Shown here in pieces: positions 6,876-59,736 of a stretch of 64,000 nt of DNA; within the stretch, counting starts at the first letter, position 1; every line of letters begins with the position of its first letter. The stretch is from Arenicellaceae bacterium. GTDB lineage: Bacteria; Pseudomonadota; Gammaproteobacteria; Arenicellales; Arenicellaceae. The notes under the pieces were generated by a model. It did not search any database and was not told the origin of the DNA. It worked only from the letters and a program-made list of their open reading frames with translations. The position numbers and the translations under genes were made by a program. The DNA lies in the NCBI GenBank assembly GCA_029246505.1, contig JAQWNC010000005.1, forward strand, positions 62,001-126,000, given 5' to 3'.

Positions 6876-6915
6876 ACTTAGCCTCACTTTCTATATACGG
6901 CTTTAGGTGCCTCAC

Positions 6916-7395
6916 ATGATTAGCTTATCCATCAATGGCTCGACTCAGTCGCTCGGTGACATAGATCCAGAAACGCCTTTGCTTTGGGCACTAAGAGATA
7001 CCCTTGGCCTGGTAGGAACCAAGTATGGTTGTGGTATTGCTCAATGCGGCGCCTGTACGGTGCATCTTAATGGCGTTCCTGTTCGTGCGTGTCAGTTGCA
7101 GGTCGGGAACCTCGAAGGCCAGGATATTACGACCATTGAAGGGGTTGCTAGTGCGGATGGTACGCTTCATGCCCTGCAAGAAGCATGGATAGAGCATGAC
7201 GTCCCGCAATGTGGATACTGTCAGGCCGGACAGATCATGAGTGCTGCCGCGCTGTTAGCGGCCAACACCAAACCTAATGATGACGATATAAATGCCGCAA
7301 TGGCTGGCAATATTTGTCGTTGTGGAACCTACACGCGCATAGTCGAGGCAATTCATACGGCTGCTGGAAAACTGGATCAAGGAGGTACAGCGTGA
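6916..7395 (+). CDS. (2Fe-2S) subunit of IorAB-type molybdenum hydroxylase, copy 1
   Basis: 159 residues, the size of isoquinoline 1-oxidoreductase alpha chains. Two iron-sulphur motifs are complete: a plant-type cluster, [17 protein letters not shown] with a fourth cysteine in VRACQL, and a C-terminal helical cluster, [11 protein letters not shown] with ICRCGTY. It passes electrons from the molybdenum centre of the large subunit to an outside acceptor. I chose the ATG at 6916, preceded by TAGGTG, over an upstream GTG, because the tandem copy conserves this ATG and diverges before it. It overlaps the large subunit by four bases (GTGA). It has no signal of its own, so it is probably co-exported with the Tat-tagged partner. 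Confidence 0.92.
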
Positions 7396-9641
7396 ATAAT
7401 TTACAAGATGGCTACAATGATCCGCTGGACGTACTTGGGCCTAAACAAGCTAGTCAATTAAGTCGTCGAGAGTTCATCAAGTTAAGTGGCATGGGTGCTG
7501 GGTTAGCACTAGCCTTCGTTTCGGTACCTTTTAGTAAGTCGGTTGCTGCAGCTTCAGAAGGGAGTGAATTTAACCTTTATGTTCAAATTAACCCTGACGG
7601 AGTAATTCGAATTTATTCTCCTAACCCTGAAGTGGGGCAAGGTATTAAGACTGCATTACCTATGATTGTGGCTGAGGAATTGGATGCGAATTGGGACGAT
7701 GTAGTTATTGAGAATTCTCCAGTTTCAGACGAGTACGGTCGCCAAAGGGCTGGCGGCTCCAGGTCAGTACCCCTTCGTTGGGATGAATTAAGAAAAGCTG
7801 GCGCGGGAGTGCGGGCTATGTTGATAGAAGCTGCTGCTGGCGAGTGGAATGTGCCTTCCAGTGAAGTGACGACAAATCAATCGATGCTGATTCATGCTTC
7901 TTCAGATCGCAGAATTAGCTATGGAGAAGTAGCTAATTTAGCCAGTGAATTAAGCCCGCCAATGGTCGATTCACTCAAATTTAAGGCACCAGAAGAGTAT
8001 CGCTTGCTTGGTACTCGAATTACGGGTACTGACAATATGGCTTTGGTTACCGGTAAGCCTATATTTGGTATTGATATACAGCTACCAAATATGTTGTACG
8101 CCAGTTACACCAAATGCCCGACAATTGGCGGGCGAGTAGTAGAAACTAATCTTGATGACATTAAAGCCTTACCAGGTGTGGTGACAGCATTTGTCCTTGA
8201 GGGTACTGCTGGTGTTCCAATGTTCGATCCTACGGGTGTGTCCATTACTCCCGGTGTCGCGATTGTCGCGGAATCGACTTGGCAAAGCTTTAAGGCTCGT
8301 GAAAGCTTGCAGGTTGAATGGGATACCAGTGAAGCGTCAAGCGATACGTGGGCTGACTTTGTCGAAGCAGCAGCAGAATTAAGGGGCAAAGAAGGCGCTA
8401 CAGTATTGGCAGAACAGGGTAACGCCCCTCGAGTTATAAACGATGCTACTACCAAGGTTTCTAGCCAATATAATTTCAGCTTCGTTTCTCATGCGCAACT
8501 AGAGCCACAAAGCTGCGTTGCCCATTGGCGAGAAAATATAATGGAAGTATGGAGTACGTCACAAGCCCAGTCGTTAGTAAGGGGCTCCGTAGCCTCACTA
8601 TTGGACATACCTAAAGAGAATGTCATTGCACACCAGTTGAGGGGCGGCGGTGGCTTTGGTCGGCGCTTAAATAACGATTATATCCGTGAAGCAGCTCTGA
8701 TTGCTCAGCGAGTAGATGTCCCGGTGAAACTTCAGTGGTCGCGTGAAGATGATATGTCATTTGATTTTTTTCGCCCTGGCGGATTTTATAATATGCAGGC
8801 CAGTGTTGATGAAAATGGCAAGCTAAATGCGTGGAATAGTCATTCAATTGCTGTTTCTGCGGATGGTAAAGAACCGAATGTTTCCGCGGGCCTTCGGCCG
8901 ATCGATTTCCCTCGGGAAATACTGCAACATTATAAGCACACCCTAACACTGTTGCCTTCAAAAACGCCGACAGGTCCCTGGAGAGCACCAAGTTCAAATT
9001 CGTACGCTTTTGTAGAACAAAGTTTTATGCATGAGTTGGCTGTGGCCGCTAAACGTGATCATGTGGAGTTTTTGGTCGAGTCGATGGGCGAGCCGAAATG
9101 GTTCCGAGAAGGCGAAGATTATTCTTTGAATACCGGGCGTGCGGTGAATGTCATCAAAATCGCGGCCGAACGTGCTGGCTGGGGGGCAGAACAGCCTGCA
9201 CGTCGCGCATTGGGTTTATCATTTTACTTTTGCCATGCCGGACATGTTGCGGAAGTTGCCGACGTTAGCGTGGATCAAAATAAAAAGATTACCGTTCATA
9301 AAGTTTGGGTGGTGGCAGATGTTGGGCAGATAATAAATATGAGCGGCGCTGAAAACCTGTGTCACGGTGCGGTGATCGATGCACTTAGTACAATGATGGG
9401 GTTGGAGATCACAATGACAAATGGTCGTATAGAACAAACTAATTTTGATCAATATCCTTTGTTAGGAATTGTTTCTCGACCCGAAATAGACGTCCATTTT
9501 GTAGATAGTGGGTATTCGCCAACTGGATTGGGTGAGCCGGCATTTCCACCATTGGCCGGGGCAGTATGTAATGCCATTTACACTGTGACAGGTGATCGGA
9601 TAAGGAGTTTACCAATTCGAAAGTCTGGATATACGATTTAG
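7392..9641 (+). CDS. Molybdopterin-binding large subunit, IorB type, Tat-exported, copy 1
   Basis: 749 residues of the xanthine dehydrogenase/isoquinoline oxidoreductase beta family. These enzymes hydroxylate N-heterocycles or oxidise aldehydes at a Mo-cofactor. The N terminus carries a twin-arginine signal ([18 protein letters not shown], near residue 27) ending in a small-residue stretch, so it works in the periplasm. Cofactor motifs seen are RGGGGFGRR (about residue 417) and the C-terminal [14 protein letters not shown] carrying the presumed catalytic glutamate. The start is the GTG at 7392 behind a perfect AGGAGG; longer in-frame extension into iorA is not used. No cytochrome partner or XdhC-type maturase is adjacent. 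The substrate is unknown. Confidence 0.92.
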
Positions 9642-9897: not shown

Positions 9898-9938
9898 ACT
9901 AAGCCTCACTATCAATATATAGCTTTTAGGTGCTTTAC

Positions 9939-10418
9939 ATGATTAGTTTATCTATCAATGGCTCATCTCAGTCGCTCGGTGACATAGATCCAGAAACGCC
10001 TTTACTCTGGGCATTAAGGGATACCCTTGGCTTGGTAGGAACCAAGTATGGTTGTGGTATTGCTCAATGCGGTGCTTGTACGGTGCATCTTAATGGGGTT
10101 CCTGTTCGTGCATGCCAGTTGCAGGTTGGAAACTTAGAAGGCCAAGAGATTACGACTATTGAAGGTGTTGCGAGTGAGGACGGCGCGCTTCATGTACTGC
10201 AAGAAGCATGGATAGAGCATGACGTCCCGCAGTGTGGTTACTGTCAGGCTGGACAGATCATGAGTGCTGCCGCTCTTTTAGCGGCGAATACTAAGCCTAG
10301 TGATGAAGATATAAACACTGCAATGGCTGGCAATATTTGTCGTTGCGGAACATACACGCGCATAGTGGAAGCAATTCACATCGCTGCTAGAAAACTTGAT
10401 CAAGGAGGTACAGCGTGA
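9939..10418 (+). CDS. (2Fe-2S) subunit of IorAB-type molybdenum hydroxylase, copy 2
   Basis: 159 residues, nearly identical to copy 1. All eight cluster cysteines are kept ([11 protein letters not shown] plus VRAC; QCGYC plus ICRCG), so it should carry two 2Fe-2S centres. Differences cluster on surface-like positions in the middle and the C-terminal helix. The ATG at 9939 follows TAGGTG. The four-base GTGA overlap with the next gene and the GGAGG in its own 3' end are conserved, which couples translation of the two subunits. Confidence 0.92.
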
Positions 10419-12667
10419 ATAATTTGCAAAATGGCTACAACGATCCTCTGGATGCATTTGAGCCAAAACAGGCTAGGCAATTAAGTCGTCGAGAGTTCAT
10501 TAAGTTAAGTGGTATGGGTGCTGGGTTGGCACTAGCAGTCGTTTCGGTACCTTTTAGTAAATCGGCTACTGCAGCAACTGATGGTGTTGAATACAATCTT
10601 TTTATCCAAATTAATTCTGACGGAGTAATTCGAATTTATTCTCCTAACCCTGAAGTGGGGCAAGGTATAAAAACTGCTCTACCAATGGTAGTTGCAGAAG
10701 AGTTGGATGCGAATTGGAGCGATGTAGTAATTGAAAATTCTCCAATTGCTGATGAATACGGCCGACAAGTGGCTGGTGGTTCCCGATCGGTGCCTACACG
10801 ATGGGATGAACTTCGGGCGGCTGGCGCGGGAGTACGGGCTATGCTGATAGAAGCTGCTGCTGGTGAATGGAGCGTGCCTTCTAGCGAAGTTACAACAAAC
10901 CAGTCAATGCTCATTCATGCTTTTTCAGACCGTAGAATTAGCTATGGAGAAGTAGCTAATTTAGCCGGTGAATTAAGCCCGCCAATGGTTGATTCACTCA
11001 CATTTAAAAACCCAGAAGAGTATCGCTTGCTCGGTACTCGAATTACGGGAACTGACAATATGGCCTTGGTTACTGGTAAGCCTATATTTGGGATAGATTT
11101 ACAACTGCCAAATATGTTGTACGCCAGTTACACCAAGTGCCCGACAATTGGTGGGCGAGTAGTAAAAGCTAATCTTGATGAAATTAAAGCCTTACCAGGT
11201 GTGATAACGGCGTTTGTGCTTGAGGGTACGGTTGGAGTTACTTCATTTGATCCTAGAGGTGTGTCCGTTGCCCCCGGTGTTGCAATTGTTGCGGAATCTA
11301 CGTGGCAAAGCTTTAAGGCTCGTGATAGCTTAAAGATTGGATGGGATACTAGTGAAGCTTCCAGTGACTCGTGGAGTGATTATGTGGAAGCGGCAGAAGA
11401 ATTAAGAGGAAAAGAAGGCGCCGCTGTCCTACTTGAACAAGGTACTGCCGCTCAGGTTATAAATGATGCTGCTACTAAGGTTTCTAGTCAGTATGGTTTC
11501 GGTTTTGTTTCTCATGCGCAATTAGAGCCTCAAAGCTGCGTTGCCCATTGGCGAGAAAACATGATGGAGATATGGAGCACATCGCAAACTCAATCCGAGG
11601 TAAGAGGGTCGGTGGCTGCACTTTTAGACATGCCAAAGGAAAACGTAATTGCCCACCAGTATAGAGGTGGTGGCGGATTTGGTCGAAGGCTCGATAACGA
11701 CTACGTGCGTGAAGCTGCTCTAATTGCGCAGCGAGTAGATGCTCCGGTGAAACTGCAATGGTCTCGCGAAGACGACATGGCGTTTGACTTTTTTCGTGTT
11801 GGCGGATTTTATAACATGCAAGCAAGCGTTGACGAAAACGGCAAACTTAATGCCTGGAACAGCCATGCGATCTGTCTTTCAGCGGATGGTGAGAAACCCA
11901 ACTCTGGTGCTGGTCTTAGGCCAATGGACTTCCCACGAGAAATGTTGGAACATTTTAAACATACACAGACACTCCTGCCATCGAAAACACCAACAGGTCC
12001 GTGGAGAGCACCGAGTTCAAATTCGTACGCTTTTGTGGAGCAAAGTTTCGTGCATGAAATGGCTGTAGTTGCTCAACGGGATCATTTAGAGTTTTTGATA
12101 GAGTCTTTAGGGGAACCTAAGTGGTTTAAAGAGGGAGATTCAGCTTCTTTGAATACTGCGCGAGCAATTAACGTAATCAAAACTGTGGCTGAACGTGCTG
12201 GTTGGGGAACGAAGCAACAACCCGTAGGTCGTGCATTGGGTTTATCGTTTTACTTTTGTCATGCGGGATATGTTGCGGAAGTCGCCGATGTTAGCGTGGA
12301 TAAAGATAAAAAAATTACCGTACATAAAGTTTGGATGGCGGTAGATGTTGGGCCTGTATTGAATTTAAGTGCTGCGGAGAATCAGTGCCAAGGTGGAGTG
12401 ATAGATGGAATTAGTACATTGATGGGGTTAGAGATCACTATGACAAAAGGTCGGGTAGATCAGTCTAATTTTGATGAATATCCTCTATTAAGAATTAGTT
12501 CGCGGCCTAAAATCGACGTGCACTTTGTAAAGAGTGAGTACTCACCAACAGGATTGGGTGAGCCCGCATTTCCACCGTTAGCTGCGGCAGTTTGTAACGC
12601 TATTTACTCCGTTACAGGTGACCGCATACGAGATCTCCCAATACGAAAAGCTGGATATACGATTTAG
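10415..12667 (+). CDS. Molybdopterin-binding large subunit, IorB type, Tat-exported, copy 2
   Basis: 750 residues, paralogue of 7392-9641. It has the same twin-arginine signal ([12 protein letters not shown]), RGGGGFGRR and [14 protein letters not shown] motifs, so it should be active and periplasmic. Divergence from copy 1 is scattered; around residues 255-290 and the last 150 residues several substitutions change charge or size (for example [10 protein letters not shown] against [10 protein letters not shown]), which may alter substrate range. That reading is inference. Start GTG at 10415 behind AGGAGG. A symporter operon follows 130 bases downstream and could supply the substrate or handle the product. 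Confidence 0.92.
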
Positions 12668-20042: not shown

Positions 20043-21065
20043 TTAAAAAATGGTGCAATCCAATTCTATAAACTCGGCGCTTAATGCGACATAAAGTCGC
20101 TCACTATAAGCTTGTTCGGTAAAAGTAGTTGGGTCGTTAATTTCTATGCGGTAAGCGAGTTCGGTTTGATCTTCGCTTAACACAAAGTATTCGGTTACTT
20201 TCACGTTTTCGCTTTGCCTCGCACCTGCTTGATTAACGTACGGGTAATTGATTCTACTGGTCTCAACAACCAATGTGTTTCCTTCCCAGCGACCGACGGA
20301 ATAACCAAGTGGACTTGCTACTTGCATTGCGGCCGCTGCGGGGCTTGCGCCTACGTGTATGGTTCTATCGGTTCCAAAATATTCTGTCACCAAGTTTACC
20401 GTATCACCGTGATCCGAAATTATGAATGACAATGGTTGATACATCGGTGTAGGCATGCCGGGTGCCTCACAGCGTGCTACCGGGGCTGTAACTGGGTCCC
20501 AGACGCTCATCTCAGCACGTGCCTCTTCTGTGTACGGAAAATGTCGTTTTGTGCCTACGGCTCTACCTGCGATGCTCCAAACTCTAAATATTCCCTTGTC
20601 CTCACTGGCTGCATCTACTAATTGACTCAAATCGACATCTGAATGAGCCGCACCGCCAACGTGGTCTTGTGACCAGCGTGGCTTGATGGTCGCTGTTAGC
20701 ACTGCCTCTTTACCATTTTCGAATAATGCATTACTACCGAGAATATAGCGTGGACGGCGTTCCGATATGTTTCCCGCGATGGTAATACGCTCACCAACCA
20801 CGAAGTGTTCTCGCTTTACTCCCATACGGCCGAATAGGTTTGGGCTCCCGTAGGTTTCAACTCGCCAAGTTTCCTCGGTACTGTCCAGGTTTGTAATTTT
20901 TATGTCCAGCCCAGCGTGTGGATTCTTCCAATGAACCCTCATAAGTTCACCTTCGATTTCGGAAACTTCTTTAGAAAATTCAGAACGCGAATGATGTGCA
21001 CTGGTAATTGGGAGTAAAAATATTAGCGATGTGAATATCGCTAATAATAATTGTTTAGCTGACAT
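20043..21065 (-). CDS. Exported two-domain DUF6152 protein (copy A)
   Basis: 340 residues. Signal peptide 1-23 ends ITSA directly before HHSRSEFS, so the mature protein should begin with His-His. The DUF6152 domain follows (about 24-130): IEGELMRVHWKNPHAGLDI, WRVETYGSPN and VGERITIAGN, probably a small OB-like barrel. A second domain (about 160-340) has CEAPGMPTPMYQ, RTIHVGA, and GYSVGRWEGNTLVVETS; the usual GHSIG is GYSVG here. It ends ELDCTIF with a lone cysteine. A good ribosome site (GGGAG) fixes the start. Most like copy B. Function unknown. Confidence 0.88.
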   Translation of the reverse strand: MSAKQLLLAIFTSLIFLLPITSAHHSRSEFSKEVSEIEGELMRVHWKNPHAGLDIKITNLDSTEETWRVETYGSPNLFGRMGVKREHFVVGERITIAGNISERRPRYILGSNALFENGKEAVLTATIKPRWSQDHVGGAAHSDVDLSQLVDAASEDKGIFRVWSIAGRAVGTKRHFPYTEEARAEMSVWDPVTAPVARCEAPGMPTPMYQPLSFIISDHGDTVNLVTEYFGTDRTIHVGASPAAAAMQVASPLGYSVGRWEGNTLVVETSRINYPYVNQAGARQSENVKVTEYFVLSEDQTELAYRIEINDPTTFTEQAYSERLYVALSAEFIELDCTIF

Positions 21066-21476: not shown

Positions 21477-21788
21477 TTAAGCATTAAACCAAAACTCAAT
21501 TTCTGATGTATCTACCTCAAAGCGTGCAGCATGCTCTTGTTCAGGTTCAAGATAGTACCAATCCCCGGGACCGTAACGAGACTCCTTTCCGGACGAGAAC
21601 ATTATAAGCTCTCCGACGGTGATCACTCCGCAATTCTCGGTGGGGTGGGTGTGTGGTTCTATTTCTGTACCTGCCGGGTAGGAGGCGAACAGGACCTTAC
21701 AGCCATCTGCCAGAAGTTGATGTGCATCAAAGGGCCCCTCAAACGGAGGCAGTGCTGAAATCAGTTTGGGAAACGGTTTTTGGTTCAT
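21477..21788 (-). CDS. Small cytoplasmic cupin
   Basis: 103 residues, one cupin barrel without a signal peptide. Motif 1 is PAGTEIEPHTHPTENCGVITVGE, with the His-x-His and glutamate-type ligands; motif 2 is YGPGDWYYLEPEQEHAARF. Its start overlaps the stop of the upstream DUF6152 gene by one base (TAATG), so the two are translationally coupled and very likely functionally linked. The role is unknown; candidates are metal-dependent isomerase, dioxygenase or ligand sensor. Confidence 0.8.
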   Translation of the reverse strand: MNQKPFPKLISALPPFEGPFDAHQLLADGCKVLFASYPAGTEIEPHTHPTENCGVITVGELIMFSSGKESRYGPGDWYYLEPEQEHAARFEVDTSEIEFWFNA

Positions 21789-22789
21789 TAATCGGCCAGC
21801 ATGCAGTTATATGGCTTGATCTCTTCTCCAGGTATCCATTCATAGCCAGCGCGACCGAGAAATGCTTGGCCTTCATATGTCGTTGGGTCGCTAGAAGTTG
21901 CCTCCCAGGTCATTTGTCGATTGTCTTCATCGAAGGTGATGCGCTCAACCATGGTGAAATCTTCGCTTTTCGGCGTGCCAAATTCGTCAACGTATGGCCA
22001 ACTAATGTTGGAGGTCTCAATAATTAGTGTTAGCCCTTCCCATCTACCGATTGAGGTTCCCATCAACGAGGTCGGTTGCGTGTTTGGATTGAAATTGCTA
22101 TCCATCTGTATAGTCCGGCGACCATCCCATTGCTCAATTTGAATCAGTATCTGTCCTTCACCTTCTTGAAAGGCTATTGGGAAAGGCGTGTCCATAACTA
22201 CGGGCATACCGGGCGCTATACATCGCAGGGCAGGGTCATCGACCACCGGATCCCAGGCTTCTCTGGCAGCCAGAGAAGCCGCTGTAAAGTTACGCACTGG
22301 GTCTTGATCATTGGGCCCGCGATTACGTGTCCATACACGGTATATACCCTGTGGTTCATCGCCGTTGATTTTAGTCTCTGGTCTGTCATTGGGGGAAACC
22401 CGATCTAAAAGCCCCAAGCGGCCTGCGAAACCAGGATCGAGTAAAACTTCCTTGCCGTTCGCATAAGTCATATTAGTTGCCAACATCTCGTTTCGTCCCA
22501 AGCGAGAAAATGCACCCGAAAATGTTACGCGATCACCAACGCTAATAGCCTCATCGAGCCCCAACCGCTGTAGTCGATTTACCGGCGCAGTTTCTATATT
22601 CCAAATCTCGCCGTCTTCTCTTCGAATTTTGAAATTTGCATGTGGGTTGACCCACAATATTTCCACGATCTCACCTTTGATATCACCGACGTTATCATTA
22701 TCGAAAAACGCGCTAAATGAATGATGCGCAGATGCTACGCCAAAAACAAAAGTTGCCAGAGTAAAAATACTTACTTGAATCAGTCTCAC
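21788..22789 (-). CDS. Exported two-domain DUF6152 protein (copy B)
   Basis: 333 residues. Signal peptide 1-21 ends VASA just before HHSFSAFF. First domain: IKGEIVEILWVNPHANFKI, IWNIETAPVNRLQRLGL and VGDRVTFSGAF. Second domain: CIAPGMPVVMDTPF, RRTIQMDS and GTSIGRWEGLTLIIETS, where the common GHSIG is GTSIG; C terminus with YNCMLAD. It shares the CxAPGMP and REAWDPV segments with copy A, so A and B form one subgroup. It lies 50 bases behind the SDR gene and overlaps the cupin gene, giving the order SDR-DUF6152-cupin in one operon. Confidence 0.88.
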   Translation of the reverse strand: MRLIQVSIFTLATFVFGVASAHHSFSAFFDNDNVGDIKGEIVEILWVNPHANFKIRREDGEIWNIETAPVNRLQRLGLDEAISVGDRVTFSGAFSRLGRNEMLATNMTYANGKEVLLDPGFAGRLGLLDRVSPNDRPETKINGDEPQGIYRVWTRNRGPNDQDPVRNFTAASLAAREAWDPVVDDPALRCIAPGMPVVMDTPFPIAFQEGEGQILIQIEQWDGRRTIQMDSNFNPNTQPTSLMGTSIGRWEGLTLIIETSNISWPYVDEFGTPKSEDFTMVERITFDEDNRQMTWEATSSDPTTYEGQAFLGRAGYEWIPGEEIKPYNCMLAD

Positions 22790-26874: not shown

Positions 26875-27915
26875 ATGCAAACGAACCGTCAGTCCTGGAT
26901 CAAGATTGGAACTACAGCGATAACGCTATTTCTTTTAGCAACCGCGAGTTATGGCCATCACTCACGTTCTAATTTTAACTTTGGTGCCACACTGGAGTTA
27001 GAAGGCACTATTAGTTCATTTGAATTTCGAAACCCACATACCTTCTTATCACTGACCGTAACCGCTGACTCTGGCGAAGTACAGGAGTGGCTGCTTGCAG
27101 GTAACTCTATTGCCAGTTTAAAAAGCGCAGGTTGGGCAGCGGATACATTTTCTGTCGGTGAGCAGGTTAAAGTTGTTGGTAACCCGGATCGAAATGAAAG
27201 AAAGCGCCTTTTATTCTTGGATGTGATTACTAAAATGGACGGTTCTACGTACGCTTCGGGTAAAATTTCACCGGGCGGTCGACCGGCAGTAACTAAGGCC
27301 GGTGCCGTAGGTTCAAATGACTTCACTGGTGTCTGGCAGCCGCCATTTAATCCACGTACTGTGGCCGCGAACTTTCAAGTTGCCCAGCTACCAATAACCG
27401 CAAAAGGCCAGCCTTTTATTGATGCTTATGATGAGGGCGAAGATCCGGCATTGGATTGTGAGGCTGATGCAGCGCCTATGACTGTATTGCCTATTTATCC
27501 AATGCAAATCACTAGATCTGGGGATGAGTTGCACATGCATTATGAGCAGTTTGACGGTCGAAGGGTGGTTTATTTGGGATTAGATGAACACCTAGCAGAT
27601 ACACAAGCTACGCATATGGGGCACTCAATTGGCAGTATCGACGGTAATGTATTAACCGTAGATACGGGGTTCTTCACCGAGGATCGATGGGGCTTGGGCC
27701 GTGGTGCACCCAGTGGATTAGGTAAACACGTTGTTGAGCAATACACACTAGCCGATGATGGAATGACAATGGCTGTGGAGTTTACCTTTGAGGATCCCGA
27801 GTATTTAACCGAGCCGGTTAGTGGGTCTGGATCAATGGCATTTCGCCCCGGGTATGAAATGGAAGAGTGGGATTGCGATACCACAGCAGCCCGTCGGCAT
27901 TTATCACTAGATTAG
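26875..27915 (+). CDS. Exported two-domain DUF6152 protein (copy C)
   Basis: 346 residues. Signal peptide 1-27 ends ASYG directly before HHSRSNFN. Domain 1: LEGTISSFEFRNPHTFLSL, WLLAGNSIASLKSAGW and VGEQVKVVGNPDRNERKRL. Domain 2 begins near DFTGVWQPPFNPR and has CEADAAPMTVLPIYPMQI, RRVVYLGLDEHL, GHSIGSIDGNVLTVDTGFF and FEDPEYLTEPV; the end reads EEWDCDTTAARRHL. Closest in layout to copy I (same HHSRSNF start, same DFTGxW and AARRH-like end). Followed by a strong terminator, so probably monocistronic. Confidence 0.9.
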   Translation: MQTNRQSWIKIGTTAITLFLLATASYGHHSRSNFNFGATLELEGTISSFEFRNPHTFLSLTVTADSGEVQEWLLAGNSIASLKSAGWAADTFSVGEQVKVVGNPDRNERKRLLFLDVITKMDGSTYASGKISPGGRPAVTKAGAVGSNDFTGVWQPPFNPRTVAANFQVAQLPITAKGQPFIDAYDEGEDPALDCEADAAPMTVLPIYPMQITRSGDELHMHYEQFDGRRVVYLGLDEHLADTQATHMGHSIGSIDGNVLTVDTGFFTEDRWGLGRGAPSGLGKHVVEQYTLADDGMTMAVEFTFEDPEYLTEPVSGSGSMAFRPGYEMEEWDCDTTAARRHLSLD

Positions 27916-27935
27916 TTTTGCTACATATATTATTC

Positions 27936-27973
27936 AAAAGCCCGCTATCCTTCGGATAGTGGGCTTTTGTTTG
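27936..27973 (+). terminator. Strong Rho-independent terminator after DUF6152 copy C
   Basis: A 15-base arm beginning AAAAGCCCGC pairs with GGATAGTGGGCTTTT around a three-base loop, ending in a T-run. It also has an A-run on the left, so it can act in both directions. Confidence 0.9.
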
Positions 27974-28070
27974 TCTAGAGCCCTTAAACCTTAAGGATTG
28001 CAAAAGGCTGTCCACGTTTAAACCCGCTGAAGGCTTTATATCTGCAAACTAGTAAAAGATCTGGGTAGGT

Positions 28071-28352
28071 TTAAGCTTCTAAGTCAATTACATCAGATGT
28101 TGGGAAACTACTAAACGGAAAGGGTCGTGTCTCTGAGTTGAACGTAGCAAAGTGTAATATTTGCGTTACGTATTTGCTAATACTGTCTCCTGCGTTCTTA
28201 AGATAACTATTTGGGTTTCCGTTGATAATCAAAAACGCGCACTGACCAACTACTATCGCCAACATGACTGGTTGAGTTAGGTAAAAAATCATCCAAAACA
28301 CTGCGACCATAAACACACGCACCCATTTTGATTGGTATTTATCGTCAGTCAT
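28071..28352 (-). CDS. DUF4389 membrane protein
   Basis: 93 residues with a hydrophobic hairpin (about 11-45): WVRVFMVAVFWMIFYLT and VMLAIVVGQCAFLIINGNPN, then SISKYVTQILHFATFNSE and a PFPFSSFP end. This matches the DUF4389 pattern (conserved Y-x-x-Q-I-x-x-F and PFPF). Inner-membrane protein of unknown function. It lies upstream of, and on the same strand as, nothing obvious; copy D starts further away on the same strand. Confidence 0.75.
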   Translation of the reverse strand: MTDDKYQSKWVRVFMVAVFWMIFYLTQPVMLAIVVGQCAFLIINGNPNSYLKNAGDSISKYVTQILHFATFNSETRPFPFSSFPTSDVIDLEA

Positions 28353-28442
28353 TTTATATCTCTAATAGAGTTTCAATTACCTTATTAAATGAGGACGAAT
28401 TAGCTTATTTAAACCGATCATTACCGGCAGGCTGTCATGACG

Positions 28443-29498
28443 TTATGTTGGCGGCTCCAAAAACCTTTTGGTGCTTTCCGGATCGCAGCCACCTGAATAC
28501 ATTTTTAAATGAGGCGAGTATATGAGGTTTCTGGAGTGTATCATTGGTTCAGATAAATACTCGGGATCTTCCAATATAAATTCCATTGCGATTAGAGTGC
28601 CGTCTTCTACGAGTCGGTACTTCTCGATTACATGTTTTTGGCCACCAGATGGGACGCCCACTTGGTATGGTGAACGATGGTCTTCAAAGTTTCGCGTATC
28701 GACGATCAGCGTATCGCCCTCCCAATGCCCAATTGAGTGGCCAGTGGTAAACCGCTGCCCTGGATCAGGGTGATCTCTACCGTCCATATATATATCGCGG
28801 TGTTCATCGAACCACTCACTTCTAAAGCGGATTACCTCTGCGGCTTCGCTCATATCTATTTCCATCAGATATATCCATGTGGAAACTAGCGCAGCTGGCG
28901 TTGGTCGGCCGACACAAGTTGATTCTGGGTTCTCACTGGATAAAGGATCAAAGCTATCTTTGGCACGTTGGCCTTTCTCGGTAAGCTTAAGAAATGCATT
29001 AAAGAACCCATCGAAGCCTCCTGGGTATTGTCCGAACATAGTTCGATCACCGATCCATATACCGCTTAGGGAGTCTGTTTTAGATTCTGTTGTCTCGATG
29101 TTTTCAGGGCTGGTTACCGGTTCACCGGACGCCATCGTTATCGATTCTAATTTTGCGTATTTTCGTCCACTACGCATTACATGTGATCGAATAAATACCT
29201 GATCTCCAGGTGTCAGCGAGTCTTTGTTCCATCCCGCTCGTCTAGCGAGAACATTTAGGGCACCCATTTCAATTTCCCACTGAACTGGTTCACCACTTTC
29301 TTCAGTTTCGACAATGATGTAAGCATGCGGTTGACGCCAACTAAATCGAATAACTTCTGCTTCAAAAGCGTATATAGAATTCAGATCCATACCAGCATCA
29401 CTATGGTGGGCTTGAGCGCCATTGATGACAAATAGGGCACAAAAGCTTGCGGTTCGAAGGGTTTGTGTCCATATTGATTGGGCAAGTATATTTGGCAA
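28443..29498 (-). CDS. Exported two-domain DUF6152 protein (copy D)
   Basis: 351 residues. Signal peptide 1-30 ends GAQA right before HHSDAGMD. Domain 1: FEAEVIRFSWRQPHAYIIV (Gln replaces Asn in the NPH motif), WEIEMGALNVLARRAGW, PGDQVFIRSHVMRSGRK. Domain 2: LSGIWIGDRTMFGQYPGGFDG, CVGRPTPAALVSTWIYLMEI, RDIYMDGRDHPDPGQRF, GHSIGHWEGDTLIVDTRNF, VPSGGQKHVIEKYRL and FILEDPEYLSEP; end SGGCDPESTKRFL. It groups with copies G and J (shared HHSDAG and DGRxHP). Monocistronic as far as seen. Confidence 0.9.
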   Translation of the reverse strand: MPNILAQSIWTQTLRTASFCALFVINGAQAHHSDAGMDLNSIYAFEAEVIRFSWRQPHAYIIVETEESGEPVQWEIEMGALNVLARRAGWNKDSLTPGDQVFIRSHVMRSGRKYAKLESITMASGEPVTSPENIETTESKTDSLSGIWIGDRTMFGQYPGGFDGFFNAFLKLTEKGQRAKDSFDPLSSENPESTCVGRPTPAALVSTWIYLMEIDMSEAAEVIRFRSEWFDEHRDIYMDGRDHPDPGQRFTTGHSIGHWEGDTLIVDTRNFEDHRSPYQVGVPSGGQKHVIEKYRLVEDGTLIAMEFILEDPEYLSEPMIHSRNLIYSPHLKMYSGGCDPESTKRFLEPPT

Positions 29499-36861: not shown

Positions 36862-37902
36862 ATGTGGAAGTCAGCAAGATTCGCCTTCAGTTTGGCATTT
36901 TTAGCTTTAGTACCTATAGTTTCCGTGGCCCATCATGGGTTTGCGGCGCATTTTGACAACAAGACAGTGATTAGAATTGAAGGCACCGTTAAACAATTTG
37001 ATTTTATTAATCCTCACGGTTTTTTGCATATTGACTCAGTAAATGAAGCCGGCGAGCCGGTTGTATGGGTTTGTGATTTGCAAGCTAAAACCCAACTGGT
37101 TAGACGCGGAGTTGACGAGACACTTTTTACAGTTGGCGAACCTATAGTCGTTGAAGGATACCCTGCCAGGCGCGAAGCATACGGGTGTGAATATGGTACA
37201 GGCCATTTTTCTGACGGCAGCACGTTTACTATGCGCTTAGTCGGAGATAAGCCACAAACTCAATTTGCTGAAAATGAACGTATACCTCTGGCAGAAGGGG
37301 AAACACGCTCAATATTTGGAGTTTGGATGCGACCTGGTATGTTTGGGGATGCAAGCGGTCGGGGAGAGCGATCGGGTGATGATTCAATTACACCAGCGGG
37401 TCAATTAGCAGTCGATGCTTTCGATTCAATCAATGACAACCCAGTAGTGAGTTGCGAAGGAGGCAGCCCAGTGCGAAATTGGACTCCACCAGGGCTGGCG
37501 ACGAAGTTTAGTCAGGAAGGTGAAAAAATTTATATTTATCATGAGTCTATGGATATTACTCGTACCGTACATATGGATCTTAATGAGCATCCGTCCGAGA
37601 TTGAGCCTAGCGATATGGGACATTCAATTGGTAGATACGAAGAAGATGGAACTCTGGTAATTGATACTGCCGTATTTAAGGCTGGGGTTTTATCTGGAGA
37701 AACATTAAATACAGATCAAATGACTATGCAGGAGCGTGTCTCTATAACAGAAGGTACTGGCGACCTCAATATAGCTTGGACGGTCTACGAACCGGTTTAT
37801 TATTCAGAGCCAATAATTGGAAGTCAGTCACTTCAGAGTACAGAAAAAGAACTTATTCCATACGAATGCATTCCCGGTTCGCCAATGGGTAGTTATCAAT
37901 AA
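36862..37902 (+). CDS. Exported two-domain DUF6152 protein (copy E)
   Basis: 346 residues. Signal peptide 1-23 ends VSVA directly before HHGFAAHF, the only copy with Gly instead of Ser after the His pair. Domain 1: IEGTVKQFDFINPHGFLHI, WVCDLQAKTQLVRRGV, VGEPIVVEGYPARREAYGCE (with two extra cysteines, in WVCDL and YGCEYG). Domain 2: SIFGVWMRPGMFG, CEGGSPVRNWTPPGLA, RTVHMDLNEHP, GHSIGRYEEDGTLVIDTAVF; end LIPYECIPGSP. The extra cysteine pair is specific to this copy and could be a second disulfide or metal site. Follows the amidohydrolase. Confidence 0.9.
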   Translation: MWKSARFAFSLAFLALVPIVSVAHHGFAAHFDNKTVIRIEGTVKQFDFINPHGFLHIDSVNEAGEPVVWVCDLQAKTQLVRRGVDETLFTVGEPIVVEGYPARREAYGCEYGTGHFSDGSTFTMRLVGDKPQTQFAENERIPLAEGETRSIFGVWMRPGMFGDASGRGERSGDDSITPAGQLAVDAFDSINDNPVVSCEGGSPVRNWTPPGLATKFSQEGEKIYIYHESMDITRTVHMDLNEHPSEIEPSDMGHSIGRYEEDGTLVIDTAVFKAGVLSGETLNTDQMTMQERVSITEGTGDLNIAWTVYEPVYYSEPIIGSQSLQSTEKELIPYECIPGSPMGSYQ

Positions 37903-49034: not shown

Positions 49035-49125
49035 CGTACTCATTAACGGTCATACTGACCTACCGAAATAAACATATAACTGCGATAGCGTTGGAGTCCG
49101 ACCGAGGGTAGGATTGGAGTTAACT

Positions 49126-50193
49126 ATGGGAGATAAGACGTACAACGAAGTTAGTGAATATTATGGCAAGACCTTGCAGGGGTCCGAAGACTTAAAAACT
49201 AATGCCTGTTGCACTGATACCGACTTGCCAGAATATGTAAAAACTAACTTATCGAACATACACGATGAGGTGCTGGCACGCTATTACGGTTGTGGTTTGG
49301 TAGCACCACAAGTGTTGAAAGGCGCGCGTATCCTTGATTTAGGTAGTGGTAGCGGGCGCGATGTTTACGCGCTTGCCCAAGAGGTTGGAGAACATGGCTC
49401 AGTCGTAGGCGTAGATATGACTGATGAGCAATTGGAAGTCGCTAATCGGCACATTGAGTATCATCGTGACAAGTTTGGTTACGCAAAGGCAAATACAGAG
49501 TTCCATAAGGGCTATATTGAAAAACTGGATGAATTGGACCTTGAGCTAGAAAGTTTTAATGTGGTCATTTCAAATTGTGTGATCAACCTTTCTCCTGATA
49601 AAGAAGCGGTACTCAAGCAAGTATGGAATTTGCTTAAGCCCGGCGGTGAAATGTACTTTTCGGATGTTTATTCAGATCGTAGAGTTCCGGTAGGACTTAT
49701 TAAAGATCCGGTGTTATATGGCGAGTGTTTATCAGGAGCTTTGTATTGGAATGACTTTCTAACACTGGCTAAAGATGCAGGATTTACTGATCCTAGATTG
49801 GTGGAAGATCGACCTTTAACTATTGATAACGCGACAATTGAGGCGAGAGTTGCGCCTATAAAATTTTACTCTGCCACTTATCGTCTTTTTAAGATTGACA
49901 ATTTAGATAGATCATGTGAAGACTACGGGCAGGCGGTGATTTATAAAGGGAGTGTGCCACAGCATTCGGAAAAATTTGTACTAGATGCTCACCACCACAT
50001 AGAGAAAGGAAGGGCTTTCCCGGTTTGTAGGAATACTTATAGAATGTTGAGCGAATCACGTTTGGCTGAGCATTTCGAGTTTGTCGGTAATGGCGAACAT
50101 CACGTCGGTATTTTCCCTGGTTGCGGTGAGATAATGCCATTTTCCGCGCTTAAATCTGACTCAGCGACATCAGATTCGGCCAGCTGTTGCTAG
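49126..50193 (+). CDS. arsM: Arsenite methyltransferase ArsM
   Basis: 355 residues. Transfers methyl groups from SAM to As(III), giving mono-, di- and trimethylated arsenicals. SAM motif LDLGSGSGRDVYALA with VVGVDMTDEQLEVA; the conserved arsenic-binding cysteines are present at about C28/C29 (NACC), C151 (SNCVINL) and C201 (GECLSGA). It ends DSASCC, an extra vicinal pair typical of some family members. I start at the ATG at 49126, which follows TTGGAG by a proper distance, not the TTG four codons upstream. First gene of an arsenosugar operon; arsS follows after nine bases. Confidence 0.94.
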   Translation: MGDKTYNEVSEYYGKTLQGSEDLKTNACCTDTDLPEYVKTNLSNIHDEVLARYYGCGLVAPQVLKGARILDLGSGSGRDVYALAQEVGEHGSVVGVDMTDEQLEVANRHIEYHRDKFGYAKANTEFHKGYIEKLDELDLELESFNVVISNCVINLSPDKEAVLKQVWNLLKPGGEMYFSDVYSDRRVPVGLIKDPVLYGECLSGALYWNDFLTLAKDAGFTDPRLVEDRPLTIDNATIEARVAPIKFYSATYRLFKIDNLDRSCEDYGQAVIYKGSVPQHSEKFVLDAHHHIEKGRAFPVCRNTYRMLSESRLAEHFEFVGNGEHHVGIFPGCGEIMPFSALKSDSATSDSASCC

Positions 50194-50202
50194 GTGTAAA
50201 TT

Positions 50203-51162
50203 ATGCATGATATGCGAACACGGTTGCAGCCAAGCGATTTCCCGGCAATTCGGCGTAAACAGTTATCTACCCTTCAGGTAAATTTGGGCTATACCTGTAA
50301 CCAAACGTGTTTACACTGCCATGTAAATGCAGGGCCGACTCGTAAAGAGCAAATGAGCCGAGAAACTATCGATGTCGTACTTGATGTATTACGTAATACC
50401 AAAGTTAATACTTTGGATTTAACCGGCGGGGCGCCCGAGTTAAATATAAATTTTCGCTATTTAGCGGCCGAAGCTCGGGCACTGGGCGTGCATGTTATAG
50501 ATCGGTGTAACCTGACTATTCTTAGTGAGCCGGGACAAGGTGATTTGGCGAAGTTTTTGGCGGAGCACCAGATCGAGGTAGTTGCTTCCTTGCCCTGTTA
50601 TCTCGAGGACAATGTTGATGCCCAGCGAGGCGATGGGGTCTATCAACGGAGTATGGATGGACTGAAAACACTGAACAAATTGGGGTACGGTAAGGCAGAA
50701 AGTGGGTTGATATTGAACTTGGTATACAACCCGATCGGTCCATATTTGCCGCCAGCGCAAATACAGTTGGAAGAAGATTATCATCGTGAGTTAAGAGCCC
50801 GATTCGGGATCGAATTCAACACCTTGTTTATTATTACCAATATGCCTATTTCCCGGTTTGGTAGCACCCTGGTATCTCATAATCAGTTCGATGATTATAT
50901 GGGGCTGTTGCGCGGTGCGATGAATAAGGACAACCTTGAATCGGTAATGTGCCGAGACATTGTGAGCGTGGACTATCAGGGTTATTTATACGACTGCGAC
51001 TTTAACCAAATGCTTGATATACCACTTGGTGGCACGACTGAAAAAAAGCACCTGCGGAAACTTTTGGAAGAAAACATAGAGGGAACGGCTATCGCTGTAG
51101 CGAACCATTGTTATGGTTGTACTGCTGGGCAAGGGTCAAGTTGCGGAGGCGCGCTGGACTAG
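50203..51162 (+). CDS. arsS: Arsenosugar biosynthesis radical SAM protein ArsS
   Basis: 319 residues. Radical SAM enzyme needed, after ArsM, to make dimethylarsinoyl ribosides (joins a 5'-deoxyadenosyl unit to dimethylated arsenic). The [4Fe-4S] motif is CNQTCLHC in NLGYTCNQTCLHCHVNAGP; LTGGAPELNINFRYLA is the GGE-like SAM motif. The C-terminal part has MCRDIVSVDYQGYLYDCDFNQML and a cysteine-rich end (NHCYGCTAGQGSSCGG) that probably binds a second cluster or the arsenical. It ends one base before the next start (TAGCGTG), so translation is coupled to the glycosyltransferase. Confidence 0.93.
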   Translation: MHDMRTRLQPSDFPAIRRKQLSTLQVNLGYTCNQTCLHCHVNAGPTRKEQMSRETIDVVLDVLRNTKVNTLDLTGGAPELNINFRYLAAEARALGVHVIDRCNLTILSEPGQGDLAKFLAEHQIEVVASLPCYLEDNVDAQRGDGVYQRSMDGLKTLNKLGYGKAESGLILNLVYNPIGPYLPPAQIQLEEDYHRELRARFGIEFNTLFIITNMPISRFGSTLVSHNQFDDYMGLLRGAMNKDNLESVMCRDIVSVDYQGYLYDCDFNQMLDIPLGGTTEKKHLRKLLEENIEGTAIAVANHCYGCTAGQGSSCGGALD

Positions 51163-51163
51163 C

Positions 51164-51832: not shown

Positions 51833-51872
51833 ATTTGCATCCGTTTACTTCTCATTTAACCGTTATTTAGCG

Positions 51873-54800: not shown

Positions 54801-54876
54801 TTGATTCCTTGTTTTATTATTTAAGATGTTGTTATTAAAGGGCACATATACTCCGATTTAGGAATATACCAGTGGA

Positions 54877-55266
54877 TTAATCCCATTCTTTTTCGACACC
54901 ACCTTCGGTGGTTACATAACCTAATAAGCAGCCATTAGCGCCATCACGAAGCTGATGACATCTTACAGAGATGTTGTCACCGGCTTGAATATCATCCTTT
55001 TCCCAGCCTCGACGTGCCAGTGCGTTTAAGCCACCACCTTCGAGTGCCCACAGTTCTTTTTCGCCATTTTCATTAGCTGCTTCAAGATGAATCCAGGCAT
55101 GGGGGTTGATCCAAATTACTTTGTTAACTTTGCCTGTTAGGTGTGTGTACTCGTGTAGTGAGTAATTTCCGTGCGAATGGTGTGCTATGCTGGTAATTGG
55201 TGAGCTTAGCAGCAGCAGTATAGCCATTTTAGCAAATGTTTTGATCGACAAAATTACTTCTCTCAC
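54877..55266 (-). CDS. Exported single-domain DUF6152 protein (copy F, short)
   Basis: 129 residues; only the N-terminal DUF6152 domain, no second domain. Signal peptide ends TSIA directly before HHSHGNYS. Motifs: LTGKVNKVIWINPHAWIHL, ELWALEGGGLNALARRGW, AGDNISVRCHQLRDGANGCLLGY. Two cysteines (RCHQL, GCLLG) are shared with the other short copy, H, and with none of the long ones. Start is uncertain: GTG 55266 or TTG 55251, the latter seven bases after GAGAAG; both leave the signal intact. Followed by the secreted protein gene at 54162-54800. Confidence 0.87.
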   Translation of the reverse strand: MREVILSIKTFAKMAILLLLSSPITSIAHHSHGNYSLHEYTHLTGKVNKVIWINPHAWIHLEAANENGEKELWALEGGGLNALARRGWEKDDIQAGDNISVRCHQLRDGANGCLLGYVTTEGGVEKEWD

Positions 55267-55359: not shown

Positions 55360-56379
55360 CTAACTAGAAAACTGGCCAGAAGCAGAAAGTTCAGGATCAC
55401 AATTGTAGCGGTACATTTTTAATTTAGGAGTGAAGTCCCACTGAAGTGTCGCGCTAAACGATTCTGTAAAATATTCAGGGTCTTCCAGAAATACTTCAAT
55501 TTCTAATCGTTTACCCTCGTCAATAAGTGAAAATCTCTCGATTGTATGTTTTAGAGCTCCAGATGGTACGCCATCGCTGTATGGTGCACGATTATCTGCA
55601 AATAATCGTGTATCAACCACCAAGGTCTCATCTTCCCAATGGCCAATCGAGTGGCCCTGTACGGTACGCTCCCCATTTTCTGGATGGCCACGCCCATCAG
55701 TGTAAACAATTCTTTCATTATCGAAAAATTCGTTCTTAATATTGACGCGATCATCTAGAATTTCGATATCAGTTAGGTATACCGCGGTTGCCGTTAATAT
55801 GCGCGGTGTTGGCGGTGATATGCACTGAGCGATGGGGCTGTCGGTAACGTAGTTGTAACTGGCTTTCGCTTGGGCACCGGCGTCGGTTAGCGGTGTTTTT
55901 ATAAGCTGCTCCATAAAAGGGCCAAGAGTCGAAGTCCGTCCTTTCCAGATTCCCGCAAGGCTAGTGGTAAAGTCAGAACCTACATAATCACTTTCGTCTT
56001 GAATCCATAATTTTCCGTCCGCGGTTTCGGTAGAAATCATCATCGCAAATTTGCGATCAGGGTTTCTATCCGGGTGCGCGCGCACGGAGATAACATCACC
56101 AGGCTTTAGCATATCTGTTGTCCAGCCGCTGCGTGACATGATTGGTGTTGATCCAGTTTCTATGGCCCATTCCACCGTTTCGCCATTCTCTTGCTCAACT
56201 TTTACGTAGGTTGTGACGTGCGGATTTCTCCAAACGTAACGAACTACAACCCCCTGGATTGATAAGATATTTTTTTCGTCGTAGCCAGCATCACTATGGT
56301 GCGCAAATACTGGCGTAAATAAAATTGAAACGATACTCGCTATAGAGATAAAGGTTAGAGGTATAAATATTTTTTTCAT
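55360..56379 (-). CDS. Exported two-domain DUF6152 protein (copy G)
   Basis: 339 residues. Signal peptide 1-26 ends PVFA directly before HHSDAGYD. Domain 1: IQGVVVRYVWRNPHVTTYV, WAIETGSTPIMSRSGW, PGDVISVRAHPDRNPDRK. Domain 2: LAGIWKGRTSTLG, CISPPTPRILTATAVYLTDIEIL, RIVYTDGRGHPENGERT, GHSIGHWEDETLVVDTRLF, VPSGALKHTIERFSL and FLEDPEYFTESF; end YRYNCDPELS. Same subgroup as copies D and J. Transcribed towards copy F on the same strand, 93 bases apart. Confidence 0.9.
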   Translation of the reverse strand: MKKIFIPLTFISIASIVSILFTPVFAHHSDAGYDEKNILSIQGVVVRYVWRNPHVTTYVKVEQENGETVEWAIETGSTPIMSRSGWTTDMLKPGDVISVRAHPDRNPDRKFAMMISTETADGKLWIQDESDYVGSDFTTSLAGIWKGRTSTLGPFMEQLIKTPLTDAGAQAKASYNYVTDSPIAQCISPPTPRILTATAVYLTDIEILDDRVNIKNEFFDNERIVYTDGRGHPENGERTVQGHSIGHWEDETLVVDTRLFADNRAPYSDGVPSGALKHTIERFSLIDEGKRLEIEVFLEDPEYFTESFSATLQWDFTPKLKMYRYNCDPELSASGQFSS

Positions 56380-58626: not shown

Positions 58627-59736
58627 TCATTGAACTATATGCCGACTCGCCGCGTTTGGATCACAACCGTATTCATCCTGGAATGGATAGCTTACATCAA
58701 GGCCAAGCTGAGTCGATATAGTGACTGGCTCCGTCAAATAGACAGGATCTTCGAGAGTGTACTTATAGTCAATGCGCGTTCCGCCTTCCGTTAATGTGAG
58801 CCACTCGACAAGATGTTTCTGTTCACTTGAGGAGACGCCACCACCGATCCCCCACTTCGCGGGAGTAAAATATGCTGTATCGACAACAAGGGTCTCTCCC
58901 TCAAACCAGCCAATCGCATGCCCTAAGTGAGAAGGCTGTGTATCCGTTGGGTGCTCGGTCATTCCAAGATGGATGACACGATACACGTCCATAATCTCGG
59001 TTCGAATGATTAATGTATCGTCATCGCGCTCGATCCTGTGCGCCGCAGGCACATCACTAGAATATAGCCAGGGCGGACTCTTTGAGATACAGCGGTACCA
59101 TGGATTATCTTGGATCTTAAATGCGTCAATTCCAGCTTGACCGAGCTCAGTAACCGGTAAACCAGCGGCGGCGAATTCAAATCCGCCGAAGTCTATTTGA
59201 GATTCAGCAGAAGTAGGTATGCTATTCCTTCCTCCGATACCAAATCGACCGCCGACTGATCGCCAAATGCCAGTAAAGTCTTTGGATGATGCAGACTTAT
59301 TAACCTGTCGCTGTGCTTGTCGAGGCATACCTTCAGGCACGCTTCCTCCTGAAACCATAGTGCTACCATCGGACAGTACCCAATAGTTGGAGTAGTAGAG
59401 GTTTTTGTCACTGTTATTGTCGGGGTTAGCGAACACGGTGATCTGATCACCTACCTGCATCGTGTTCCGTGTCCAGCCACGTCGCATCAGTACAGATACG
59501 GAATTAAGTTCAAAAAGCAGCTCCAGAGGATCACCATTTTCGTTCTCGATGGCGACAGTCGCAAAAGTATGTGGGTTTCGCCAGGAATACTCAGAAATAA
59601 CCCCTGAGAATTCGACTAGAGTGTTGGTATCAAAATTACTACGCGAATGGTGCGCCGACGTTGGATTACAAAACCCCATAGTCAATACGATAGCTGCGAA
59701 CAGCTGTAACCAATTTTTAATTGTGCATAGAGACAC
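58627..59736 (-). CDS. Exported two-domain DUF6152 protein (copy I)
   Basis: 369 residues, the longest copy. Signal peptide 1-28 ends PTSA before HHSRSNFD. Domain 1: FSGVISEYSWRNPHTFATV, LLFELNSVSVLMRRGW, VGDQITVFANPDNNSDKNL. Domain 2: DFTGIWRSVGGRFG, CISKSPPWLYSSDVPAAHRI, YRVIHLGMTEHP, GHAIGWFEGETLVVDTAYF (GHAIG for GHSIG), and LEDPVYLTEPVTI; end DEYGCDPNAASRHI. Groups with copy C. A TGTTACA half-site lies upstream at 59957-59963. Confidence 0.9.
   Translation of the reverse strand: MSLCTIKNWLQLFAAIVLTMGFCNPTSAHHSRSNFDTNTLVEFSGVISEYSWRNPHTFATVAIENENGDPLELLFELNSVSVLMRRGWTRNTMQVGDQITVFANPDNNSDKNLYYSNYWVLSDGSTMVSGGSVPEGMPRQAQRQVNKSASSKDFTGIWRSVGGRFGIGGRNSIPTSAESQIDFGGFEFAAAGLPVTELGQAGIDAFKIQDNPWYRCISKSPPWLYSSDVPAAHRIERDDDTLIIRTEIMDVYRVIHLGMTEHPTDTQPSHLGHAIGWFEGETLVVDTAYFTPAKWGIGGGVSSSEQKHLVEWLTLTEGGTRIDYKYTLEDPVYLTEPVTISTQLGLDVSYPFQDEYGCDPNAASRHIVQ

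Follow-up and report, generated by a model that had tools for sequence, protein, structure and literature searches.

What is the second half of the long DUF6152 proteins that are encoded repeatedly in one short stretch of a gammaproteobacterial genome, and what might the two halves do together? The stretch in question, hereafter the window, is the whole 64,000 nucleotides analysed from an Arenicellaceae bacterium (assembly GCA_029246505.1, contig JAQWNC010000005.1, positions 62,001 to 126,000 of the forward strand). It encodes eight proteins with a C-terminal domain—copies A, B, C, D, E, G and I, which are complete, and J, which is cut by the window edge—as well as two short proteins, F and H, that have DUF6152 without this domain. 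A first-pass annotation had drawn attention to the C-terminal domain over the range 26875-29498, which spans copies C (gene 26875-27915, + strand) and D (gene 28443-29498, - strand).

Our analysis confirms the feature: a DUF already on record, bearing an N-terminal histidine signature, is combined with an unnamed domain resembling fatty-acid-binding proteins (FABP), and the family has expanded to about a hundred copies. We propose that the long copies are a ligand-binding family of periplasmic, metal-dependent (oxidative) enzymes that has diversified by substrate, a proposal that we judge to stand about evenly between right and wrong.

A separate, unnamed C-terminal domain

When the C-terminal part of copy D (28482..29063, - strand) was used as a single query, it found the other seven copies, with E values ranging from 3e-8 (A) to 4e-48 (G) and of 1.3e-27 for copy C, which excludes a chance likeness and bears out the domain of about 180 residues first described in the eight long copies. 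An iterated profile of this part gave E values of 2e-46 to 1e-58 for the window copies, seven of which had seeded it. The proposed order of motifs is kept in an alignment of seven copies, with EPVY in place of DPEY in E and with the variants GYSVG in A, GTSIG in B and GHAIG in I; A and B do replace the His of GHSIG by Tyr or Thr, as had been noted. No name attaches to the domain. Pfam at its curated cut-off recognised only DUF6152, in the N-terminal part, among the ten window proteins, and NCBIfam at its own cut-offs named no family in them. In 80 members from the window genome searched at E 0.1, Pfam matched DUF6152 in 62 and no other family in more than four, and no lipocalin or FABP family was among the matches. 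The weak ones included DUF4131 (four of the 80, best E 0.0013) and the THAP4/nitrobindin haem barrel, matched once, in copy B (one of the 80; E 0.039, below cut-off). A sequence search of the PDB returned no relative, the best E value being 1.7 with the profile of the C-terminal part and 1.5 with the full protein.

Structure prediction points to a barrel. Mature copy D, modelled by AlphaFold2 from 115 aligned proteins, reached a predicted local distance difference test score (pLDDT) of 93.7 and a predicted template modelling score (pTM) of 0.89, and residues 111-300 of this model match the retinoid- and fatty-acid-binding barrels (FABP/CRABP) and NanoLuc (Z 8.2-9.1), with 7oxw as the best barrel match (Z 9.1, root-mean-square deviation (rmsd) 4.2, 123 aligned). 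Modelled on its own, in the absence of DUF6152, a free-standing C-domain protein of a related genome is likewise predicted to fold (pLDDT 91.8, pTM 0.89) and matches the same entry (Z 9.4, rmsd 3.8, 124 aligned). For this second model 237 chains reached Z of at least 8, the best 50 all being FABP, CRABP, CRBP, SAHS or NanoLuc-type, and its residues 1-195 align to FABP residues about -1 to 132 (Z 8.8-9.4). Because the free-standing protein is predicted to fold alone, we rejected the possibility that the C-terminal region is part of the first domain; on the evidence of these models it is a separate domain that folds without DUF6152, as the first-pass annotation had implied. Copy C (C-terminal barrel domain 27328..27879, + strand) was assigned the fold by kinship to the modelled members.

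The predicted likeness to FABP, CRABP, CRBP and NanoLuc-type barrels extends over nearly the whole chain and includes helices between the first and later barrel strands. There are four of these in copy D, between the strand at 116-120 and the strand at 182-187, and three in the free-standing model, between strands 8-11/36-38 and 82-86. Copy D has nine strands of at least three residues after residue 110, shorter strands being unlisted, compared with ten in the FABP/iLBP fold. The C-terminal domain differs from these barrels in being bacterial and, by prediction, secreted, in its two conserved cysteines and longer lid region, and in the absence of a Pfam match. The agreement is moderate, which weakens it as evidence for a binding barrel: Foldseek E values are about 1e-3 (best 1.2e-3, free-standing model), identity is 8-17%, and a Z of 8-9 is only slightly above the 7-8 that the tool states as usual for the top hit of a model that matches nothing clearly. 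We therefore conclude that the modelled domain and the FABP-type proteins share a fold, which does not imply kinship; nor do the match lists exclude families that they do not contain, such as CusF or CcmE.

Conserved residues and a likely disulfide

Residues were counted over 259 C-domains, 176 fused to DUF6152 and 83 free-standing, and are numbered here as in mature copy D. Six positions are strongly conserved: C165 (258/259), R204 (256/259), G223 (258/259), S225 (249/259), E262 (258/259) and D281 (254/259). The final cysteine, Cys308 in copy D, is Cys in all 229 domains aligned there, the other 30 having gaps. In copy D these residues are encoded on the - strand at 28914..28916 (Cys165), 28797..28799 (Arg204), 28623..28625 (Glu262) and 28485..28487 (Cys308), and the first and final conserved cysteines of copy C lie at 27457..27459 and 27874..27876 on the + strand. 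By comparison, the His of GHSIG, considered earlier as a catalytic residue, is His in only 142 of the 259 domains and Tyr, Asp, Trp, Thr or another residue in the rest, and was rejected in that role; what is conserved instead is the set C165, R204, S225, E262 and D281.

Both conserved cysteines are present in all eight window copies (J being read from its complete form in locus L007). The number of cysteines is even in 170/170 complete fused mature proteins and exactly two in 158 of them, which supports the disulfide suspected by the first-pass annotation: a Cys165-Cys308 bond is likely on this count, and it would link the C-terminal tail with the lid region. The pattern is looser among free-standing C proteins, of which 58/66 have an even number.

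A predicted His-His start in DUF6152

The N-terminal part belongs to a family without assigned function. Pfam DUF6152 (PF19649), whose model of 98 positions excludes the C-terminal domain, scored 51-105 bits against a cut-off of 27 in 9/9 window proteins that have this part, which J lacks within the window. Residues 10-95 of the copy D model match oligonucleotide/oligosaccharide-binding folds (OB-folds), namely PriB (4apv, Z 8.8, 80 aligned) and SSB (1z9f, Z 8.3, 76 aligned); with the full model as query, Foldseek ranks lysyl-tRNA synthetases first (E 2.9e-4), which we take as OB-fold similarity.

The domain begins with two histidines. Counted by a search near the domain start of open reading frames (ORFs)—the sequences of the residue alignment begin at His-His and were not used for this purpose—the pair is present in 258/264 distinct DUF6152 ORFs. 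Four of the other six are cut by the end of their locus, one (L055:6691-7029) is without the N-terminal part and one (in L067) is a spurious match. Anchoring on the first Pro-His instead places His-His 24-30 residues ahead in 253/264, and five of the remaining 11 have the pair but an earlier, chance Pro-His. In that second motif Pro27 is kept in 262/262 domains and His28 in 261/262. His-His is immediately preceded by a signal-peptidase (-3,-1) site in 250/256 proteins and has a hydrophobic stretch ahead of it in 253/256. The same arrangement, His-His after a signal-peptide-like stretch plus Pro-His, recurs in 20/20 DUF6152 proteins from genomes without the C-domain (20 of the 30 such genomes that have DUF6152). 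Copy C has a predicted signal peptide at 26875-26955, a predicted mature N-terminus His1-His2 at 26956..26961 and, as the second part of the proposed metal site, an NPH motif at 27031..27039, all on the + strand. In copy D the predicted mature His1-His2 lies at 29403..29408 and His28 in a QPH (consensus NPH) at 29325..29333, both on the - strand. DUF6152 is best described as a predicted OB-fold with a predicted mature start of His-His, which together with Pro-His probably forms a metal site.

Pairing of the two domains

Where the C-domain is encoded apart from DUF6152, the other half is usually close by. In the window genome, 18/19 full-length free-standing C genes have a DUF6152 gene, itself free-standing, no more than 300 nt away, a count that leaves out fragments of fewer than 120 profile positions (L047:8612, L061:12139), copy J, which is fused in L007, and L070, whose upstream DUF6152 part has two stops. 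In L061 and L069 a single DUF6152 gene is the neighbour of more than one of the 18. The neighbour is on the opposite strand for L047:2557 and L059:3653, and for L061:14693 the nearest is opposite and a same-strand one is 3 nt away. In related loci, many of which are cut at their ends, 42/75 free-standing C genes adjoin a free-standing DUF6152 gene. The two domains also co-vary (the Mantel r is 0.47 over 55 same-strand pairs of separate genes and 0.83 over 175 fused proteins, with 0/2000 permutations as high in both tests), and they co-occur: in a draw of genomes from the phylum, taken without the window genome, DUF6152 is present in 11/11 C-positive versus 30/386 C-negative genomes (p 4e-12).

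Three points pull the other way. The one exception among the 19 free-standing C genes, in L067, has no complete DUF6152 next to it; the Mantel r may partly reflect shared ancestry of neighbouring pairs, besides the sharing of one DUF6152 gene by some C genes; and in a draw from the class, two of the three other C-positive genomes (G119 and G424) are without DUF6152 (p 0.06). The free-standing genes also answer a point raised earlier: the C-domain does occur outside DUF6152 proteins. Taken together, adjacency, co-variation and co-occurrence lead us to conclude, from sequence comparison, that DUF6152 and the C-domain are one functional unit.

Other partners of DUF6152

The short copies F (54877-55266, - strand) and H (57848-58219, + strand, start set at 57848) are without the C-domain and have a cysteine pair of their own, as was first noted, at Cys75 and Cys85 of the mature chain; this pair is found in four of 27 DUF6152-only ORFs. 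A gene of a family that we call X, which has no Pfam match at cut-off, adjoins F (54162-54845, - strand, 34 nt away), H (57202-57837, + strand, directly before it) and the copy in L033, and lies 2.5 kb from the copy in L041 on the same stretch; X and DUF6152 are fused as one protein in L101:147-1094 and L102:2062-3009. In genomes without the C-domain, a DUF6644-like membrane protein of about four membrane helices (by hydropathy) follows DUF6152 on the same strand in 15/15 loci examined, out of 30 such genomes, where DUF6644-like is a call by an iterated model that includes these members; with the DUF6644 model of Pfam itself, part of them pass the cut-off and part fall short of it. The earlier suggestion that the first domain can work alone gets no support from F and H, which sit beside X and belong to the Cys75/Cys85 subfamily. 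DUF6152 without the C-domain does occur, in 30/386 C-negative genomes of the phylum draw, but in the 15 of these examined a DUF6644-like protein adjoins it.

DUF6644-like genes adjoin DUF6152 in L221-L235, L150, L175, L177, L178, L184 and L189, and in distant loci they also accompany C-domain genes, frequently in tandem pairs. All three (DUF6152, C-domain and DUF6644-like part) are joined in one protein in L184, the last scoring below the Pfam cut-off. Two DUF6644-like proteins weakly match DUF2214, which we take to be a CopD-type family. As a partner in the window genome DUF6644 was rejected, one weak match being all that was found there. These sequence associations suggest that DUF6152 is a module that combines with no fewer than three partners: the membrane protein, X and the barrel.

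Copy number and distribution

The window genome (assembly of 2.64 Mb, 97.5% complete) holds 86 C-domains by a single-copy query and 83 by the family profile, along with 100 matches to the Pfam DUF6152 model, a few of which are fragments or doubtful; the same model had no match in 14 control genomes. Sorting of the ORFs in the extracted stretches, the window and L007, in which J is counted twice, gave 61 fused proteins, 27 with DUF6152 alone, 21 with the C-domain alone, one with a double C-domain and a single one labelled CN, which is spurious. The double protein, L063:3685-5250, has 522 residues with two tandem C-domains, adjoins a DUF6152 gene and is like one in the sister genome G001 (open frame of 518). 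Two further C-domain proteins, L047:2557-3633 and L059:3653-4732, carry about 120 extra C-terminal residues and have the DUF6152 gene on the opposite strand. In L067:3794-4615 the C-terminal end of the C protein shows a weak match to the latter half of the DUF6152 model, without His-His.

The paralogues are old, judging from their sequences: pairwise identity among 80 C-domains has a median of 0.26, which rises to 0.46 when each is compared with its closest paralogue. In a tree built from 261 domains, the label of origin (own genome, named loci, class or phylum) needs 62 changes, so that the genome's own paralogues are scattered among the copies of other genomes; the label fused versus free-standing needs 11 changes on the same tree, against 72 in shuffles.

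A sister of the same genus has 39 C-domain matches and the other 39 relatives have 0, DUF6152 being present in exactly the same two of these 41 genomes. More widely, the C-domain is found in 3/109 genomes of the order, 4/369 drawn from the class and 12/398 drawn from the phylum, counts that each include the window genome; copy numbers in the class and phylum draws, in which 8-13 candidates were scored per well-matched genome, are lower bounds. The best 80 loci of a scan of named genomes came mostly from metagenome-assembled genomes (MAGs) labelled Gammaproteobacteria, Proteobacteria or Rhodospirillaceae, with a few Acidobacteria. Whole-genome counts for 15 MAGs, picked because they carry the C-domain, were (C-domain/DUF6152) 120/120, 136/125, 134/136, at least 150/at least 150 in two genomes, 137/98, 46/58 and 44/47 for the first eight, and 99/76, 50/43, 74/71, 128/88, 138/148, 82/75 and 37/38 for the other seven. 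The two counts correlate with r 0.91 over the 13 genomes with counts below 150, the ceiling of the count.

Other features of the window

The remaining long copies are distributed on both strands. On the - strand lie A (gene 20043-21065, C-terminal barrel domain 20052..20585, His-His 20991-20996), B (gene 21788-22789, domain 21800..22339, His-His 22721-22726), G (gene 55360-56379, domain 55396..55953, His-His 56296-56301), I (gene 58627-59736, domain 58660..59208, His-His 59647-59652) and the C-terminal barrel domain of J (63563-64000), cut by the window edge and found complete and fused in L007:1492-2478. Copy E is on the + strand (gene 36862-37902, domain 37318..37872, His-His 36931-36936). 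Elsewhere in the window, 6907-9641 and 9930-12667 are two adjacent, closely alike copies of a two-gene set, presumably aldehyde-oxidase-like (a 2Fe-2S subunit plus a large subunit), and 49114-52499 holds what we take to be an arsenic methylation and arsenosugar cluster, with a methyltransferase, a radical SAM protein and two glycosyltransferase-like genes. Among the proteins encoded next to DUF6152 and C-domain genes in the window genome, the largest cluster consists of NHL/SGL beta-propeller proteins, with nine members including L044:4661-5980.

Discussion

How might such a protein work? We propose that the long copies are secreted two-domain proteins in which signal peptidase would free a mature N-terminus of His-His. 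This pair and Pro-His most likely bind a single transition-metal ion, with copper as the leading candidate, at a site resembling a histidine brace, with the metal at His1/His28 and His2 nearby. In an N-terminal His both the amino group and the ring take part in chelating transition metals, and with a second His this makes the copper histidine brace (PMC10952591). The C-terminal part would be an FABP-type beta-barrel with a helical lid region, the near-invariant Arg, Glu and Asp, and room for a ligand that is small and probably hydrophobic. The scores of paralogues in each genome would serve different substrates or catabolic gene clusters, the paralogue setting the substrate range.

Conservation of the site and of the polar barrel residues, strong divergence of the rest, and catabolic or periplasmic neighbours argue for an enzyme. 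The neighbours are diverse and include SGL/NHL propellers, amidohydrolases, sulfatases, cytochromes c, proteins of the metallo-beta-lactamase fold, aldo-keto reductases, TonB receptors and solute-binding proteins; the accompanying figures, 114/175 in the own genome and 129/151 in the other census, are plain counts without a background census and imply no enrichment, which limits their weight in favour of an enzyme. Other observations count against it more directly. None of the 25 commonest neighbour Pfam families (of 132 and 120 in the two censuses) is a copper-metabolism family. A second signal-peptidase-compatible site lies at +5 in 187/256 proteins, and cleavage there would remove both histidines. 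By analogy, the closest characterised N-terminal-His proteins are mainly metal binders, and the N-terminal-His anglerases have at most weak oxidase activity (PMC12537917).

Comparison with known systems sets DUF6152 somewhat apart. By prediction it resembles the copper histidine-brace proteins LPMO, CopC and pMMO (PMC10952591) in an N-terminal His, a second His and secretion, and it differs in its predicted fold, which matches the OB-folds PriB and SSB, the absence of Ig-like or beta-sandwich folds from the match list excluding nothing. Screening of secreted proteins for a His at the start has brought up Ni and Cu proteins among DUF4198, DUF6702 and the anglerases (PMC12537917); DUF6152 does not figure among these metalloproteins found by signal strapping (DUF4198, DUF6702, Ang-1 and Ang-2). 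Unlike these, it is a predicted OB-fold starting with His-His, fused to or paired with a barrel, and hugely multiplied. In the collection of papers searched, none names DUF6152 or DUF6644, and searches on OB-folds with an N-terminal histidine, on lipocalin-, FABP- or calycin-like bacterial proteins and on names of relatives found nothing on the DUF6152/C-domain family.

The association with DUF6644 makes a serious rival of the idea that the family handles metal, in uptake or as a chaperone: His-His would catch the metal, the barrel would bind a partner or a small ligand, metal-chelating or otherwise, and there would be no catalysis. This is not what we expect, and we regard it as a tentative alternative with a real chance of being right. 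The known N-terminal-His families CopC, DUF4198, DUF6702 and anglerases bind metals, and anglerases are fused to membrane permeases (PMC10952591 and PMC12537917). DUF6152 without a C-domain lies directly upstream of a DUF6644-like membrane protein at every locus examined, and the three-part fusion of L184 joins a DUF6644-like part to DUF6152 and the C-domain. Metal supply would, on the other hand, hardly explain about a hundred paralogues in one genome as divergent as these, and the window genome itself has but the single weak DUF6644 match.

More speculatively, the long copies could form a new class of secreted copper oxygenase, in which an OB-fold histidine brace is combined with an FABP-type cup that presents the substrate, and in which about 40 to more than 150 paralogues per genome would be, in uncultured proteobacteria, a periplasmic counterpart of a large P450 set; we consider this doubtful. 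A periplasmic carrier or sensor is an unlikely reading: the FABP-like barrel would bind hydrophobic nutrients or signals and pass them to neighbouring catabolic enzymes or TonB systems, with DUF6152 in a structural or docking role. The FABP-type predicted fold and the presence of TonB receptors and solute-binding proteins among the neighbours fit it, and a bacterial periplasmic bile-salt receptor, VtrC, is reportedly a calycin-type protein. It leaves unexplained why His-His and Pro-His are kept in every architecture looked at, beyond what docking needs, and near-invariant Arg, Glu and Asp in the barrel would be unusual if only the ligands varied. Finally, a metal-independent lyase, isomerase or hydrolase using Arg204, Glu262 and Asp281, with DUF6152 as a lid, would fit the observation that these residues hardly vary, whether the domain is fused or free-standing, but is very improbable, as it leaves the N-terminal His-His and Pro-His without a purpose.

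This heavily multiplied family has half a name and no assigned function. By an estimate from domain counts, it makes up perhaps about 4% of the genes of a small genome, and several relatives have at least as many copies. The conserved His-His start yields a sharp prediction of metal binding for DUF6152 proteins, and the barrel one of a ligand. If the enzyme proposal is true, a large paralogue expansion would be tied to a specific periplasmic chemistry in uncultured bacteria.

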